Shown: piece by piece, positions 12,889-26,913 of the stretch
Layout: every line of letters begins with the position of its first letter
How positions within the stretch are numbered: position 1 is the first letter of the stretch
NCBI GenBank assembly: GCA_945905925.1
Contig: CAMDQN010000003.1
Location: 34,705-98,704, forward strand
Reading direction: 5' to 3'
DNA from: Singulisphaera sp. GP187
GTDB taxonomy: Bacteria; Planctomycetota; Planctomycetia; Gemmatales; Gemmataceae
DNA: 64,000 nt
Position numbers and translations under genes: made by a program
Notes under the pieces: generated by a model
Databases searched by the model: none
What the model was told of the DNA's origin: nothing
Seen by the model: the letters and a program-made list of their open reading frames with translations, nothing else

Positions 12889-15864
12889 ATGCTGAAGCGA
12901 TACCTCCCCGTCGCGCTGTGCGTGTCGTTCGCCGCGATGCTGCTGGCAGCGCCGCCGGACCCGGCGCTGCCAGCGCCGAGGATCGACCCGGTGCCGAAGT
13001 CGCTCGCGTCTGACAAGACGGTGAAGATCGACTACGACATCGTCTACGTCCGCGCGCCGCGGTTCGTGATGAAGAACGGGAAGGAGCGCCCGTCCGCGTG
13101 GCCAGAGATCGGACACCCGACGAACATCGACGCAGGCTATGACCTCATGCTGCTCCACCCAGACGGCACGGAGGAAGTGCTTGTCGAAGGCCGCGAAGGT
13201 TCGATCGCGGACCCGTATGTGTCGTTTGACGGGGAGACGGTCTACTACGCGTGGTTCTATCTCGGCAGCCTCGGCACCGGATCGGACATCTACAAGGTCC
13301 ACGTCAAGACCAAGAAGATCGAACGACTCACGTTTCAGGAGTCCACGCCGAACACCGGCTGCGACGCGTTCAGGGAAGGCAAACAGGTGCAAGCGAATCC
13401 GCCGTTCGGCCGCGGCGTGTTCAACCTCGGCCCGTGTCCGCTGCCGGGCGGGCGGCTCGCGTTCACCAGCACTCGCGATCAGGTGAAGGTGCCGCGCGGC
13501 TACCCGCGCGTCGCGAACCAGCTCTTCACGATGGACACCGACGGCGCGAACGTCGAGAAGATCGGGCACATCAACGTCGGCAGCGCGCTGCACCCGGTCA
13601 TCCTGAAGGACGGCCGCGTCATTTTCAGTTCGCTGGAATCGCAGGGCGTCCACGGTAGCATCGCGTGGGGCATCTGGAGCATCCACCCAGACGGCACCAA
13701 CTGGAACCCGGTGGTGAGCGCGCTGTACGGTTCCGGCGGCGCTGACGACGGCTTCCACTTCCAGAGCCAACTGTCCGACGAGAGCCTTGTCATCGAACTC
13801 TATTACAACCAGAACACGCTCGGTTTCGGCACGTTCTTCAAGATGCCGCCGAAGACACCGGACGGCGTGCCGCCGTTCGGCTCCGCGCACAACCCGTCGG
13901 TCACCACGAAGGAACACGGCTGGGAAGTACCGAAGATGTACATGCGCGGTCGCGGCACGTTCCGCATGCCGTTCCAGCCCTACGGAATGGAAGTCCTGAC
14001 GCGATTCACGCACGGTAGCGACACGCCGGCGCCGCTCTCCGATCTGAGCGACCCGAAGTCGGTGCGCGTCGGCAAGCTCACGCACCCGTGCGGCGCGCCG
14101 GATAATCACTTGCTCACGGTGTGGTCGTCAGGGTCGATGCCGAGTGCGAATCGCGGCCCGATCCCCTACGACGACCCGCTCGACGCCGGTCTCTATCTGA
14201 TCAAAGGCGGGAAGACCGTGGACGAACCTGGGCAGATGCTCGTGATCAAGAACGATCCGAAATACAACGAGCAGTGGCCGCGCCCGCTCGTGTCGTACAA
14301 GCGCATCTATGGCGTGGACGAACCGAAGAAGCTCACCCCGGTCACCAACAACGGCAAGGCGTCTAAACACCTGCCGGAAGGCACGCCGTTCGGATTGGTC
14401 GGCACGTCGAGCATGTACAAGCGCGAATCGTTCCCGCGCGGCGCGGTGCCGAAAGGTAGCGTGACCGCGGTGGGCGACCCGTACAACGCGTTCTCGCACA
14501 GCATGGGCAGCCCGTACAACTGGGGCGGTCAAGGCGCCGACGCCGGGCTATACGAGAACAGCGACATCCACGCGGTGCGCATCCTCGCGATGGAACCGGC
14601 CACGCTTCCGGTCGCGGGGCGATTCTACAACCACGCCTGGGAGCGGCTCCGCATCCTCGGCGAAATCCCGGTGCGCAAGTTCGAGAAAGACGGCAAACAA
14701 CCGCTCGACCCGGACGGGAACCCGGACACCAGCTTCCTCGCGAAGATCCCGGCGGATGTCGCGTTCACATTCCAGACGATCGACAAGGACGGGATGGTGC
14801 TGAACATGGCGCAGACCTGGCATCAGGTGCGCCCCGGCGAGGTGCGGAACGACTGCGGCGGGTGCCACGCTCACTCCCAGAAGCCGACCGACTTCAATCT
14901 CACACGCGCGTCGAAACCGGAGTACGCGGTGTTCGATCTCACGAAGCACACGCCGCTACTCACCACGAAGGCAAAGGACGAGTCCAAGCAACACTGGGAC
15001 ACGAAGGACGAAACCGGCGTGCGATTCGACAAGACCGTGAAGGACGTGGAGTACCACCGCGACATCAAGCCGATCTTCGCGCGGAGTTGCGTCGCGTGTC
15101 ACAGCGGCAAGCTCGACGAACCGGCCGGGAAGCTCGTGCTCGACGACGACAAGTTGGTGGAAGGACCGCGCTGGGATTTGGGCAACGCGGGTCCGCTGCC
15201 GGCGACGTATAACGCGCTCGCGGGCAACTACATCGGCGTGACGAAGTACGTTCGCGGGTTCCAGGCACGCCGCAGCCCGCTCGTCTGGAAGGTGTTCGGC
15301 AAGCGACTCGATGGCTTCCCCGCGGAGGCGCCGAAGGGCAAGGAAGGGATCCACAAACAGATTCTCGCGCAGGGCGATTTCAAGGGAAGCATCATGCCGC
15401 CGCCGGACGCGGTGAAAGCGGGCAAGGTGTTGCCGCTCTCCGACGAAGACCGCCGCACACTGGTGCGGTGGATCGACCTCGGCGCGCCGATCGATAAGAC
15501 GTTCGACCCGAAGAAGCCAACCGATCGCGGGAGCGGGTGGATGTTCGACGACCAGCGACCGACGCTCACGCTCACTTCACCGCTGCCCGGTGTGAACGGC
15601 AAACTATCGCGCATTCTGATCGGGATGCACGACTTCGGCACCGGCCTCGATCCCGTGAGCTTCACGGTCACCGCAGACTTCGACATTGCGGGCGTAGAAC
15701 TGGGCCAGAACATCGCGCCGCGATTCAAGCTCGTGGGTGATGGCGTGTGGGAGTGGACGTTGCCGCAGCCGATCGCGGGCCTGAACACCGGCACGCTAAC
15801 GGTTTCGGTACAGGACAAGCAGGGCAACCGCACGAAGATCATCCGCCGGTTCTCGGTCAAGTAA
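12889..15864 (+). CDS. Secreted protein with WD40/PD40-like N-terminal region and two c-type heme motifs (hydrazine synthase alpha-like family, tentative)
   Basis: Signal peptide; repeated VDGETVYYAWFYLG/LFTMDTDGANVEKIGH-type blades; CxxCH motifs DCGGCHAHS and SCVACHSGK. Confidence 0.65.
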   Translation: MLKRYLPVALCVSFAAMLLAAPPDPALPAPRIDPVPKSLASDKTVKIDYDIVYVRAPRFVMKNGKERPSAWPEIGHPTNIDAGYDLMLLHPDGTEEVLVEGREGSIADPYVSFDGETVYYAWFYLGSLGTGSDIYKVHVKTKKIERLTFQESTPNTGCDAFREGKQVQANPPFGRGVFNLGPCPLPGGRLAFTSTRDQVKVPRGYPRVANQLFTMDTDGANVEKIGHINVGSALHPVILKDGRVIFSSLESQGVHGSIAWGIWSIHPDGTNWNPVVSALYGSGGADDGFHFQSQLSDESLVIELYYNQNTLGFGTFFKMPPKTPDGVPPFGSAHNPSVTTKEHGWEVPKMYMRGRGTFRMPFQPYGMEVLTRFTHGSDTPAPLSDLSDPKSVRVGKLTHPCGAPDNHLLTVWSSGSMPSANRGPIPYDDPLDAGLYLIKGGKTVDEPGQMLVIKNDPKYNEQWPRPLVSYKRIYGVDEPKKLTPVTNNGKASKHLPEGTPFGLVGTSSMYKRESFPRGAVPKGSVTAVGDPYNAFSHSMGSPYNWGGQGADAGLYENSDIHAVRILAMEPATLPVAGRFYNHAWERLRILGEIPVRKFEKDGKQPLDPDGNPDTSFLAKIPADVAFTFQTIDKDGMVLNMAQTWHQVRPGEVRNDCGGCHAHSQKPTDFNLTRASKPEYAVFDLTKHTPLLTTKAKDESKQHWDTKDETGVRFDKTVKDVEYHRDIKPIFARSCVACHSGKLDEPAGKLVLDDDKLVEGPRWDLGNAGPLPATYNALAGNYIGVTKYVRGFQARRSPLVWKVFGKRLDGFPAEAPKGKEGIHKQILAQGDFKGSIMPPPDAVKAGKVLPLSDEDRRTLVRWIDLGAPIDKTFDPKKPTDRGSGWMFDDQRPTLTLTSPLPGVNGKLSRILIGMHDFGTGLDPVSFTVTADFDIAGVELGQNIAPRFKLVGDGVWEWTLPQPIAGLNTGTLTVSVQDKQGNRTKIIRRFSVK

Positions 15865-16169: not shown

Positions 16170-18416
16170 TCACTTCATTTGCTTGATCCAGTCGTGAATC
16201 AGTTTCACCGCGGGTTCGTCCACCTTGTTCGACGCGATGTGCGGCATCCGCCCCAACCCGGTCAGCGTCATGCGGTGGTAGATCATCGACCGCGCCGGGT
16301 CTCCCGGCACGAGGATACGCGGCTCCTTGATGTCGAACGTACCTTGACCGGGCTTCACGTCCAGCACGCCGAGGTCTTTCACCGCGAGCGTTGAAAGAAG
16401 CTGGAACTCCGCGTTCCCGCCGCCCCACTTGCGGTGGCAGTGGCTGCAGTTCGCGTGCAGGTAAGCACGGGCGCGATCGTCGAGACTCGCCTTTTCGTCG
16501 CGGTAGTCCGCGAGTTTCGTGAGTTTCTCCGGCGCGATCGGGAGCTTCTTCGCGAACATGCCGATGTGGTCGAGCGTTGCGAGTTGGTTCGCGACCACAC
16601 CACCGTAGTTGTGGTCGCGGTTCATCTGCGCGGTGTTCACGCCCAGCGCGTACTTCGCAGTTACCGTGTGGCACATGTTGCACTCGGCGCGGCTCGGGAA
16701 GTGCCACTTCTGCTTCGCTTCGCCGGCGGCGGTTTTCACCGTGTACTCGCGGTCCACGCCGTTCTTGTCGGCGAGCTCCGCGTCGGTGTCCTCGTCGTTC
16801 CAGATGTACGTGTAGCCGTTCCACACCTGATCGCCGTACTCCTCCGTTCCGCCCAACACGGACGCGACAAGCAACCGTGTTTCGAGCCGCTTCTTGCCTC
16901 GTGCGGTTTCGAGCGCAAAAGTTTTCACGAGAACGGTGCCGTTCGGGAATCGCCAGCCTGGGACCGAACCCGGCGCCGGCTGCGGGTAGGTGATTGTCTC
17001 GAACTCGATCTTCGCCGCGCCCGGAATCGCGATGAACCGCTCCTTGCTCGCGCCGTCGGACCACAACTCGGAGTTCACCGAGTACGGGATTAGTCCCTTC
17101 TCTGGTGTGTGATCCTTCGTGGACGCGAACAGCCCGGTTTGGCTCAGTTTGCGCGGGAACTCGCCAACCGACTCGACCTTCGGCGCGAGCGCGAACTGGT
17201 AGATGCCGCCGTCGATGAAGTTGAGCGCGTACACCTCGCCGTCGTGGTCCTGCCCCCATGCGACGATGCGCAGGTTCGTCTTCGCGAGTTCCTTGTGTTC
17301 GGTCACGCGGGCCGCCTTCGCGTCGTACTTAAGCATCCACGTGCGCCCGGTGTCGAAGTCGCCGTAAACGTACGCGCCCTTCAGCCCCGCGTGCTTCTTA
17401 CCGTGGTAGACGAAGCCGCCGGTGATCGAGCGCGCCTCGGTGTGGTGGTGCTCAACGACCGGCTTCAGGATCGGCGTCGGCCCCTTCTTCCGCTCCGGAC
17501 GGAACGCGTGGCTACCCTCATTCACGCTCCACCCGTAGTTGCCGCCTTTCCCGATCTTGTACACCGACTCCCACAAATCCTGGCCAATCTCGCCGGCCCA
17601 CAGGTCGCCGGTCGCGGTGTCGAAGCTGATCTTCCAGCTTTGCCGGATGCCGTAAGCCCAAATCTCGCCGCGTGCGTCCTTCGTGCTGATGAACGGGTTG
17701 TCCTTCGGGATCGCGTACCCTTTGCCGGCGTCTTGCTTGTCCACATCGATGCGGAGAATCTTGCCGAGTACGGTGGTGACGTCCTGGCCGGTCTGGAGGC
17801 TGTCCGCGATGCCGCTGCCGTCGCCGGTGGAGATGTAGAGGAAACCGTCCGGGCCGAATCGGAGACACCCGCCGTTGTGCCCACCGTTGGGCCAGGTGAA
17901 GATCACCTTCTCGCTCTTGGTGTCGGCGGTCATCTTGTCGCGGTCTGCGGTGTAGCGGACAAGCCGGGTGCCGGTGGGTGACTCCTTGCTGCCATCGACC
18001 ACTTCCGACAGGTACAGGTAGCCGTTCTCCGCGAACTTCGGATGGAGAATGACGCCGTAGATGGTGTGCTTCACGTCGAGGACGAGTTTCTTCTCGGCCT
18101 TTGTTGGGTCCATGTCGAAAGTGTAAATCTTGCCCGACCGCTCCGCGATCACCCACTGCTTCTTACCCGGCACTGCGGTCAGTTCGAGCGCCTCGTTGAA
18201 GGTGATTTTGGGGTAGGTCTTCACCATCGTGTACGGGTTGGGCGGTTCCGGTGAACCAACGACCTTCGACTTGGTCCACGGCTCGCGTTTCTCGATGCCG
18301 GTGGCTTTACGCACCGGTTCGGGGTCGGCCGGTTTCGCGGCGGTGTTCGGAATGAAAAGGTACGCGGTGCCTACGACCAGCGCGGCCGCTGTCGCGGCCC
18401 ACAACATGACACGCAT
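16170..18416 (-). CDS. PQQ-dependent sugar dehydrogenase (GSDH-like) fused to a C-terminal c-type cytochrome-like region
   Basis: LYLSEVVDGSKESPTGTRLVRYTADRD, NGGHNGGCLRFGPDGFLYISTGDGSG, IWAYGIRQSWKISFDTATGDLWAGEIGQD..VYKIGKGGNYGW; C-terminal AECNMCHT and NCSHCHRKWGG. Confidence 0.85.
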   Translation of the reverse strand: MRVMLWAATAAALVVGTAYLFIPNTAAKPADPEPVRKATGIEKREPWTKSKVVGSPEPPNPYTMVKTYPKITFNEALELTAVPGKKQWVIAERSGKIYTFDMDPTKAEKKLVLDVKHTIYGVILHPKFAENGYLYLSEVVDGSKESPTGTRLVRYTADRDKMTADTKSEKVIFTWPNGGHNGGCLRFGPDGFLYISTGDGSGIADSLQTGQDVTTVLGKILRIDVDKQDAGKGYAIPKDNPFISTKDARGEIWAYGIRQSWKISFDTATGDLWAGEIGQDLWESVYKIGKGGNYGWSVNEGSHAFRPERKKGPTPILKPVVEHHHTEARSITGGFVYHGKKHAGLKGAYVYGDFDTGRTWMLKYDAKAARVTEHKELAKTNLRIVAWGQDHDGEVYALNFIDGGIYQFALAPKVESVGEFPRKLSQTGLFASTKDHTPEKGLIPYSVNSELWSDGASKERFIAIPGAAKIEFETITYPQPAPGSVPGWRFPNGTVLVKTFALETARGKKRLETRLLVASVLGGTEEYGDQVWNGYTYIWNDEDTDAELADKNGVDREYTVKTAAGEAKQKWHFPSRAECNMCHTVTAKYALGVNTAQMNRDHNYGGVVANQLATLDHIGMFAKKLPIAPEKLTKLADYRDEKASLDDRARAYLHANCSHCHRKWGGGNAEFQLLSTLAVKDLGVLDVKPGQGTFDIKEPRILVPGDPARSMIYHRMTLTGLGRMPHIASNKVDEPAVKLIHDWIKQMK

Positions 18417-18544: not shown

Positions 18545-18717
18545 GATGGGTTCCGGGTCGGTTTTTCCGACGCGGACGAAAAGGGAAGCCGGTGCGATTC
18601 CGGCGCAGGGCCGCTGCTGTGTTCGGCCAGAGCTTCGCGCTACCACGCCACTGCGGACGACCGCGGGAAGGCCGCGCGAGGCTCGCCAAGAGCCGTAAGC
18701 CAGAAGACCTGCCCATC
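18545..18717 (+). promoter_or_regulatory. Cobalamin (B12) riboswitch
   Basis: Conserved core elements in order: AAAAGGGAAGCCGGTGCGATTCCGGCGCAGGGCCGC, CGCCACTG, GGGAAGGC, and B12 box GTAAGCCAGAAGACCTGCC. P1 closes as GATGGG (18545-18550) with CCCATC (18712-18717). Confidence 0.9.
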
Positions 18718-18870
18718 GGGTGACATTCCATCGTTCGTGGCCCCGGACCGGGCTGCTGAACGGGCCGGTCTTTCCTCGCCCCGCTGCACGTGCAGCACCC
18801 GCCCCGTTTCCGCGCTCTGGTTCGCGCCCGAACTCACCACTCGCCCGACCCGGCGAGAAGGAGCGAACCC

Positions 18871-19692
18871 GTGTGTCATTCCCGTCTCCGGGGACTTCCC
18901 CCCCCGCGCCCCGCGTTCACGCTGATCGAGTTGTTGGTGGTGATTGCGATTATCGCAGTCCTCATTGGCTTGCTGCTGCCCGCCGTGCAGAAGGTGCGGA
19001 TGGCTGCGGCCCGGATGAAAGGCGCGAACAACCTGAAGCAACTCGCGCTCGCGGCCCACAGCTACGAGTCGGCGCATCTAAAGTTACCGCCGCACACCGA
19101 CTCGGCGGCGGCGTGGCCTGCGGGCCGGTACTGGTTCGGCGCGACCGTGAGCAACACCAATTCGCCCTACAATGTCCTCTCGACCGACCCGGTCAACGGC
19201 ATCCTCACGAACTACTACGAGAACAGCACGAAGGTGACCGCGTGCCCGATGTTCGACGCGTACCCGATCACGAAGGTGTACAATGGCCTGACCGCCGGGT
19301 ACGCGTACAACCGCCACTTGTGCAACGAACCGGCGTGGCCGAACCCGGTGAGCGGCAAGCGGATCACCGACTTCGGGGCAACCTCCGCGACTCTCATGTT
19401 CAGCGAGGTAACGCAGTTGCAGAGCGGCGGGACACTGGCGGAACCGTTCGGCGGGTACTTCGGTTCGCCCTACGTGGCGAACAAGGCCATCACCGCCTCC
19501 GCCGTGACCGCGACGCAGTTCCGCTTCGCGGGAGTGTCGAACGTGGCGTTCCTGGACGGGCACCTGGAGACGCGCCGCCCGGCCAACGCCCCGGCAATCG
19601 CGCCGTTCAACCAGACGGTGTGGGACACAGCAGCGAAGACGTACAACCTCGGCTTTATCTTCGCGGATCCAATCGAGTATGTGGGCCAATAA
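18871..19692 (+). CDS. DUF1559 prepilin-like protein with type IV/type II pseudopilin N-terminal methylation motif
   Basis: [60 protein letters not shown]-terminal [15 protein letters not shown] start preceded by GAGAAGGAG. Confidence 0.9.
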
Positions 19693-20493: not shown

Positions 20494-20582
20494 TGGCGAG
20501 CGGGGGGCGTAAGCCCCCTGTTCTGCTCAACAACGCAATCACGCGCAAAGGCGTAACAGGGGGCTTGCGCCCCCGCTCGCCA
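20494..20582. repeat. Inverted repeat (family B), arms TGGCGAGCGGGGGGCGTAAGCCCCCTGTT / AACAGGGGGCTTGCGCCCCCGCTCGCCA
   Basis: ~29-nt near-perfect inverted arms, ~30-nt loop. Confidence 0.85.
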
Positions 20583-25802: not shown

Positions 25803-25862
25803 GTTAGCCGCAAGCCGAAGGCGAGCGTCAAGGTGCGCGATCGCCTTCGGCTTGCGGCTAAC
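25803..25862. repeat. Inverted repeat (family C), arms GTTAGCCGCAAGCCGAAGGCGA / TCGCCTTCGGCTTGCGGCTAAC
   Basis: Perfect 22-nt inverted arms, 16-nt loop. Confidence 0.9.
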
Positions 25863-26913
25863 GAGGCAGAAGACTCATCACCAACTCGCGCTCGAAGGCA
25901 TCCCAGTCGAGGCCGTTGGCGAAAACTTCGAGGCGGCTGTCGCGGCGATACGTGGTTGGCGCGACGCTCATCGCGGTGCCGGAGCGGTTTACGGTCGCCC
26001 ATTCATCGACAAGGTGAAACACGCCTTTCAGACGCGACACTTCCTTGGTGTTCGCGAGCAGCGCGAGGAGCTTTCCCTCGTCGAACACGTCGGCCGGGTC
26101 GAACACCCATCCGCACGCGGGGCCGTTGGGCGTAAGGTAACGCTTCGCGGAAGAACCTCTCCCCCCAACCCCCTCCCCTAAGAAGGGAGGGGGAGCCAGA
26201 ACAGAAGGAGAAGAAGCTGTTGCTGCTTCTCTTACTCCCCCTCCCTTTTTAGGGGAGGGGGTTGGGGGGAGAGATTGCCTCTCTTGCGGGTACAGCGGCA
26301 ATCGCTCGTCGTTGGCGCTCAGGTCGAGCCACGCGGGGTCGATGCGCCCGTGCGTCGTGCCCGCGATGAGGAGCTTCGGCGGGAACAGTCCGTTGGCCCA
26401 AGTCTGGAAGTCGGTCACCAGTTCCGGGGTCGCGAGGTCGAGTTTGTTCATCACGAGCACGTCGGCCATCTGAATCTGATCGACGAAGATGGGGTTGTCT
26501 CGCATCTCCGGCTTAGCGAAGTCGTGCGGGTCAACGATCCCGAGCGTGGCGCGCACGTCGAGGCGCCCGTGGTAGCTCATGCGGAGCGAGTCGAGTAGCC
26601 GCGCCGGGTGGCCCAACCCCGTCGTTTCGATGATGAGTCGTTCGGGGCGCGCTTCGAGCAGAAGGAAGTGAATTGCGACCGGCAGGAACGGGGCGCTCGC
26701 GCAGCACACGCACCCGCCGCCGACCTCCTTCACCGTCACGCCGTCCGGCGCGCTGCCTTCAATAAATACATCGTCGATGGAAACGGAGCCGTACTCGTTC
26801 ACCAGCACCGCCCACCGCGAACCGGGCGCCTTGCGCTGGAGCATGTCGATGACGGCCGTTGTCTTGCCGACACCGAGGAACCCGGTGATCAGATTGGTCG
26901 GAACAGATTGCAT
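25858..26913 (-). CDS. CobW/G3E-family GTPase carrying an in-frame palindromic repeat
   Basis: TNLITGFLGVGKTTAVIDML (Walker A), NEYGSVSIDD, GGGCVCCAS (CxCC), VMNKLDLA; CobW C-terminal region FHLVDEWATVNRSGTAMSVAPTTY. Confidence 0.9.
   Translation of the reverse strand: MQSVPTNLITGFLGVGKTTAVIDMLQRKAPGSRWAVLVNEYGSVSIDDVFIEGSAPDGVTVKEVGGGCVCCASAPFLPVAIHFLLLEARPERLIIETTGLGHPARLLDSLRMSYHGRLDVRATLGIVDPHDFAKPEMRDNPIFVDQIQMADVLVMNKLDLATPELVTDFQTWANGLFPPKLLIAGTTHGRIDPAWLDLSANDERLPLYPQERQSLPPTPSPKKGGGVREAATASSPSVLAPPPFLGEGVGGRGSSAKRYLTPNGPACGWVFDPADVFDEGKLLALLANTKEVSRLKGVFHLVDEWATVNRSGTAMSVAPTTYRRDSRLEVFANGLDWDAFERELVMSLLPR
26157..26274. repeat. Palindromic repeat family D, copy 1 (inside the CobW ORF)
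   Basis: CTCTCCCCCCAACCCCCTCCCCTAAGAAGGGAGGGGGAG ... CTCCCCCTCCCTTTTTAGGGGAGGGGGTTGGGGGGAGAG. Confidence 0.92.

Follow-up and report, generated by a model that had tools for sequence, protein, structure and literature searches.

A cobalamin riboswitch and its DUF1559 pseudopilin-like target: a candidate protein for vitamin B12 acquisition in planctomycetes

In the 64 kb window (the whole stretch of DNA that was analysed), a cobalamin riboswitch precedes a gene for a DUF1559 protein with a pilin-like N-terminus, and both the linkage of riboswitch and protein and the subfamily to which the protein belongs are well supported. We consider it likely that the protein is a dedicated, B12-repressed and envelope-anchored B12-acquisition protein, an uptake role that is drawn from operons shared with B12 transport genes, from a need for B12 with no known supply and from the distribution of the protein relative to the biosynthetic protein CobI. 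The protein of this clade is probably a missing part of planctomycete B12 uptake.

The riboswitch and its expression platform

The leader matches the cobalamin riboswitch model RF00174 with 107.6 bits (cmscan, gathering score 31.5, E 5.5e-26), and all of model positions 1-189 are covered, so that the aptamer is complete. It is the sole Rfam match in the entire window and the single RF00174 match in the window genome (6.47 Mb, 96.6% complete). The first-pass annotation had described a B12 riboswitch with a GATGGG/CCCATC P1 and a B12 box, to be checked against the Rfam model, followed by a DUF1559 gene with a pseudopilin N-terminus. The riboswitch elements were located as described (Table 1), the model score is well over gathering, and the identity of the gene was borne out by the Pfam matches given below. 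The gene upstream of the riboswitch (16170-18416) is in divergent orientation and is therefore not a competing target.

Table 1. Positions of the riboswitch, its elements and its target gene in the window
Feature	Position	Strand	Evidence
Cobalamin riboswitch aptamer, RF00174	18531..18730	+	cmscan, full-length match, 107.6 bits
P1 arm GATGGG	18545-18550		sequence
B12 box GTAAGCCAGAAGACCTGCC	18695-18713		sequence
P1 arm CCCATC	18712-18717		sequence
Conserved hairpin CTCGCC-CGACCC-GGCGAG	18840..18857	+	sequence and covariation over 37 distinct leaders
Shine-Dalgarno AAGGAG, directly 3' of the hairpin	18858..18863	+	sequence; arrangement shared by relatives
273-aa DUF1559 pseudopilin-like protein, riboswitch-linked clade	18871..19692	+	PF07596 and PF07963, A1 match, AF2 model

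To study the hairpin downstream of the aptamer, Gemmataceae leaders were chosen by the loop CGNNCC with a Shine-Dalgarno sequence after it, irrespective of pairing, and 59 of 86 leaders qualified. Of 41 sequences, four with a shifted 3' arm were omitted ahead of the alignment, leaving 37 distinct leaders. All six pairs of the stem have changes on both sides. Pairing is seen in 83.3% of the alignment cells of the stem versus 74.0% in shuffles, the covariation score is 0.372 versus 0.204 (none of 500 shuffles was as high), and the covariation is lost when the partner arm is slid. This covarying hairpin just before the Shine-Dalgarno sequence is probably P13/L13 of the switch and its expression platform. 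In known cobalamin riboswitches L13 pairs with L5, and the invariant CG..CC of the loop could pair in an L13-like manner with GG..CG of the aptamer L5. Together, the position of the hairpin and this possible pairing point to control of translation, which would be off with B12. A transcription terminator as the platform was considered and dropped, since a scan of 18730-18870 found none, the single-sequence fold between aptamer and gene is weak (z -1.64), and the covarying hairpin beside the Shine-Dalgarno sequence fits the role better.

The regulatory side of the system is an ordinary cobalamin riboswitch. Like other members of RF00174, the leader has a full-length aptamer far over the cut-off and a downstream hairpin adjoining the Shine-Dalgarno sequence, as in translational switches. 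It differs from them in its target, a DUF1559 pseudopilin-like protein instead of a gene annotated for transport, for synthesis or as an isozyme.

The DUF1559 protein, its relatives and the conserved pairing

The target is the next gene on the same strand. It has a GTG start, and the mature protein probably begins at F (18916). The product scores 37.3 bits against PF07596 (DUF1559; cut-off 23.3), over residues 40-81 only, which correspond to profile positions 1-42 of 268. The prepilin motif and its helix are present, with matches to N_methyl PF07963 (25.9 bits, cut-off 21.2) and TIGR02532 (25.8 bits, cut-off 16.3); the named pilin and pseudopilin models that fit the N-terminus best, GspG, ComGC and ComGE, were all under their cut-offs. 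Of the 75 PF07596 match rows in the window genome this one is among the weaker, and the protein is the sole match there to A1, our alignment of the C-terminal domain. The model of the H-X9-DG C-terminal motif (TIGR04294) has no match in the window protein and gives 15.5 bits in L006 (cut-off 19) and 20.4 bits in L170; this motif is common in DUF1559 proteins and does not define the family, and its DGH part is retained in nearly all riboswitch-linked proteins. No TonB plug domain was matched by Pfam in the window protein.

The AF2 model, with a pLDDT of 94.9 and a pTM of 0.88, is confident; it has a mixed globular domain and a helix at residues 3-54. Foldseek with this model returned only partial, weak pilin matches (best E 0.28) and no pilin fold over the whole protein, and the pilin matches of a PDB sequence-profile search are confined to the first 60 residues. 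For the C-terminal domain, neither search matched a solved relative or a B12-binding fold. The protein thus has the N-terminal prepilin motif and long helix in common with type IV pilins and type II secretion pseudopilins (GspG, ComGC), and differs from them in its large C-terminal domain, for which no pilin or other solved relative was detected. With the planctomycete DUF1559 / SBP_bac_10 (PF07596) paralogues it shares the pilin-like N-terminus, the DUF1559 start and a DGH motif close to the C-terminus. The riboswitch-linked clade differs from these paralogues in having its own pattern, [YF]WFG...GxLxxYxE...CP...GYxYN...NVAFxDGH, and in that most of its members sit behind a B12 riboswitch.

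The pairing of riboswitch and gene is conserved. RF00174 is present in 88 of the 98 Gemmataceae genomes searched, and in 80 of these 88 it is followed within 500 nt, on the same strand, by a DUF1559-type pilin start. In the class as sampled, 269 of 298 genomes have RF00174; outside Gemmataceae a DUF1559 gene follows the riboswitch in most of 62 loci, with cases in families f2 to f8; the loci come from the high-scoring end of a list and do not give a rate. The pairing was also approached from the protein side with A1, which derives from riboswitch-linked proteins and excludes the pilin helix, in one genome per species (85,462 species), matches being chosen on protein only. The 80 matches kept are all from planctomycetes where the record title tells, and include Zavarzinella formosa and Planctopirus hydrillae. 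Among the 76 loci with sufficient upstream sequence, 73 have a B12 riboswitch immediately in front of the gene according to a riboswitch profile made from Gemmataceae aptamers; the set of 80 overlaps the family set, some genomes being common to both (for example, L271 and G051). When 13 loci were re-checked by cmscan, RF00174 was over its gathering score at the expected place in 10, and the misses were L324, where the aptamer lies at a contig edge, L271 and L297. Since the order is kept across genomes, chance adjacency of riboswitch and DUF1559 gene was rejected. Three genomes with MetH (G082-G084) have neither riboswitch nor protein. Genus g52 of family f4 (G108, G123, G132 and others) has proteins distantly related to this one (E about 1e-27), and nearly all genomes of the genus are without an RF00174 match.

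Trees were quick searches over 215 columns with no bootstrap, in which 41 DUF1559 paralogues of the window genome were placed. A branch with SH-aLRT 100 sets apart 66 riboswitch-linked proteins (f1, f2, f4, f5, f6, f7), and none of the 41 paralogues falls inside this clade. Within it, 16 Gemmataceae paralogues that have no riboswitch by the profile form one subclade; these are WWF-type DUF1559 proteins (L385-L400), mostly one per genome. Another 18 riboswitch-linked DUF1559 proteins, most of them from f3 and a few from f1, f4 or f8, are scattered among ordinary paralogues. Their occurrence at several places in the tree suggests repeated recruitment, B12 control of DUF1559 genes having probably arisen on more than one occasion. 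Ordinary-type DUF1559 proteins with an LPYIEQ-like motif were observed behind B12 riboswitches in L084, L093, L115, L141, L070, L193-L198, L202, L203 and L222, apparently a separate recruitment.

Operon partners, B12 need and B12 supply

The DUF1559 gene is usually the sole gene behind the riboswitch, and in the window it seems to stand alone. In several relatives it shares a riboswitch operon with B12 transport genes, in the order DUF1559-DUF6580-binding protein (G007, G008, G016, G023), DUF1559-DUF6580 (G096) or DUF1559-binding protein (G033). The G006 operon (L352) begins with DUF1559 and continues with a PEP-CTERM-like protein, DUF6580, a binding protein, a BtuC-type permease, a BtuD-type ATPase, CobU, a BtuF-type protein and BluB. 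Against the BtuC model NF007081 the permease scores 232.9 bits, which is under the cut-off, and CobU (185, cut-off 161) and BluB (260.5, cut-off 150) are over theirs. The gene had first been described as not being one for cobalamin transport, which is probably wrong in view of these operons that it heads.

Other Gemmataceae riboswitches mostly precede well-known kinds of B12 target, namely nrdA/B, metE, DUF6580 accompanied by a periplasmic binding protein, BtuC, cbiM-like and cobaltochelatase-like genes and a secreted PEP-CTERM-like protein, several of these names having been read off the sequence and not from a model match. DUF6580 (PF20221) and the periplasmic binding protein (PF01497) recur behind B12 riboswitches (L062 and others). 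DUF6580 is likely a membrane part of B12 import, and we would conjecture that it is an ECF S component. The secreted PEP-CTERM-like protein (L352:1213-1938, pattern SLDDVDVWVGTGSNRAAFVVDW) also lies behind riboswitches in L017, L018 and L066, and its main domain has no match in Pfam, NCBIfam or PDB. A label given by eye, DUF4465 (BtuH/BtuJ-like), was withdrawn because the same searches did not support it. The protein is a candidate for another B12-acquisition protein.

The window genome encodes a full-length B12-dependent MetH (1196 bits). It has no CobI/CbiL over the cut-off, no TonB plug match and no true BtuC (FecCD matches reach 34.1 bits at most; true BtuC-type permeases have more than 260 bits in eight relatives), and the search for an inner-membrane B12 importer found just a distant DUF6580 relative; such absences rest on draft genomes and search cut-offs. 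Among Gemmataceae, the protein is absent in 5 of the 6 genomes with CobI and present in 77 of the 92 without it (Fisher p 0.0012), and over the whole class the negative association is weak (p 0.043), both tests counting genomes without correction for relatedness. Genus g15 is divided in the same way: CobI occurs without the protein in G036 and G037, and the protein without CobI in G038 and G039. Both are present in G001. The first idea of a DUF1559 subfamily in B12 uptake or binding has held in part, in that a subfamily linked to B12 riboswitches is real and class-wide; its uptake arm is backed by the operons, by the absence of the protein from most B12-making Gemmataceae and by the window genome, where neither a TonB receptor nor BtuC was detected. 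The other two suggestions made at that stage, envelope adaptation to B12 and a B12-dependent surface function, are conjectural. A CobW-family GTPase (PF02492, PF07683) is encoded at 25861-26913 on the minus strand of the window, about 7 kb from the riboswitch and on the opposite strand, with no sign of membership in the system.

Proposed role and alternative explanations

B12 is too large for ordinary porins, and the capture step proposed here is set in cells mostly without TonB receptors. When cell cobalamin is low, the hairpin beside the Shine-Dalgarno sequence would be free and the protein would be made. The pilin-like N-terminal helix would hold it in the envelope, or export it there, and the conserved C-terminal domain would capture cobalamin or pass it to an inner-membrane importer. 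Cobalamin bound to the aptamer would then lock the hairpin and stop translation. Repression by B12, the envelope location, cobalamin binding and passage across the outer membrane are steps that we infer. Gemmata obscuriglobus is boosted by B12 together with another vitamin (PMC7734314) and Stieleria tagensis is promoted by B12 (PMC10541342), which agrees loosely with acquisition.

Could the protein be part of a general reaction of the envelope or surface to B12 starvation, such as attachment, altered secretion or a pilus variant, and not handle cobalamin itself? The pilin-like N-terminus, the several unrelated DUF1559 lineages that gained B12 riboswitches, and the reaction of Rhodopirellula baltica DUF1559 genes to salt, cold and heat shock (PMC2754498) would all fit. 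Such a response would not obviously lead one to expect B12 transport and salvage genes in the riboswitch operons, or the lack of the protein in most Gemmataceae with CobI, and we regard it as unlikely. It is quite improbable that the protein is instead a minor pseudopilin that binds no B12 itself, with a structural or assembly task in type II secretion or in a pilus-like machine through which other B12-uptake proteins, for example the PEP-CTERM-like one, are exported or assembled. The PEP-CTERM-like gene does adjoin DUF1559 in the G006 operon, and the best models for the N-terminus are GspG, ComGC and ComGE, albeit under cut-offs; against this, the DUF1559 gene mostly has the riboswitch to itself, and its C-terminal domain, which is large and conserved, does not resemble known pseudopilins. 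Despite the many DUF1559 genes of the window genome (75 match rows), a bystander position, with the leader serving another gene or being a relic, is hardly credible: 80 of 88 genomes keep the order, as do 73 of 76 loci identified independently, the hairpin before the start codon covaries and the upstream gene is divergent.

A B12-acquisition protein of this kind would answer the same proposed need as BtuB and other TonB-dependent receptors, namely capture or passage of B12 at the outer envelope, and it has B12-riboswitch control in common with them. It differs in having no TonB plug, barrel or sequence relation, in a genome without a plug match. The Bacteroides proteins BtuG, BtuH and BtuJ are surface lipoproteins that bind B12 experimentally and are partners of BtuB (PMC8941943, PMC13398666). 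Like them, the DUF1559 protein would be an additional envelope protein whose gene, in several relatives, comes under a B12 riboswitch along with B12 transport genes, and by analogy it may work as they do; it is not one of their families' members, is predicted to be pilin-anchored and occurs in genomes mostly without BtuB.

As far as we searched the open-access literature, the DUF1559 protein is new as a cobalamin-riboswitch target. No link between DUF1559 and cobalamin, riboswitch included, was found there, and supplements or databases could hold an earlier mention; the Thermogutta genome paper lists RF00174 with its target unnamed. DUF1559 is the largest paralogue group in Planctopirus limnophila, with 68 genes of unknown function, two of them essential (PMC10632474). 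The B12 switch and the B12 transport operons provide a concrete candidate ligand and assay for one DUF1559 subfamily. They bear on B12 supply in planctomycetes without TonB receptors, and the B12 riboswitch regulon would gain a protein class. A wider proposal, that most planctomycetes import B12 without BtuB through a pilin-anchored DUF1559 protein capturing cobalamin at the envelope and that the whole family consists of nutrient-capture proteins with a different solute for each paralogue, is doubtful.

Two other features of the window were observed. An imperfect inverted repeat, GGGGGCGTAAGCCCCC / GGGGGCGCAAGCCCCC, with arms about 40 nt apart, lies at 20503-20574, 3' of an SGNH hydrolase gene. 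At 12889-15861 (+) a 991-aa protein is encoded that matches the hydrazine synthase alpha middle domain (PF18582) with 49.6 bits.
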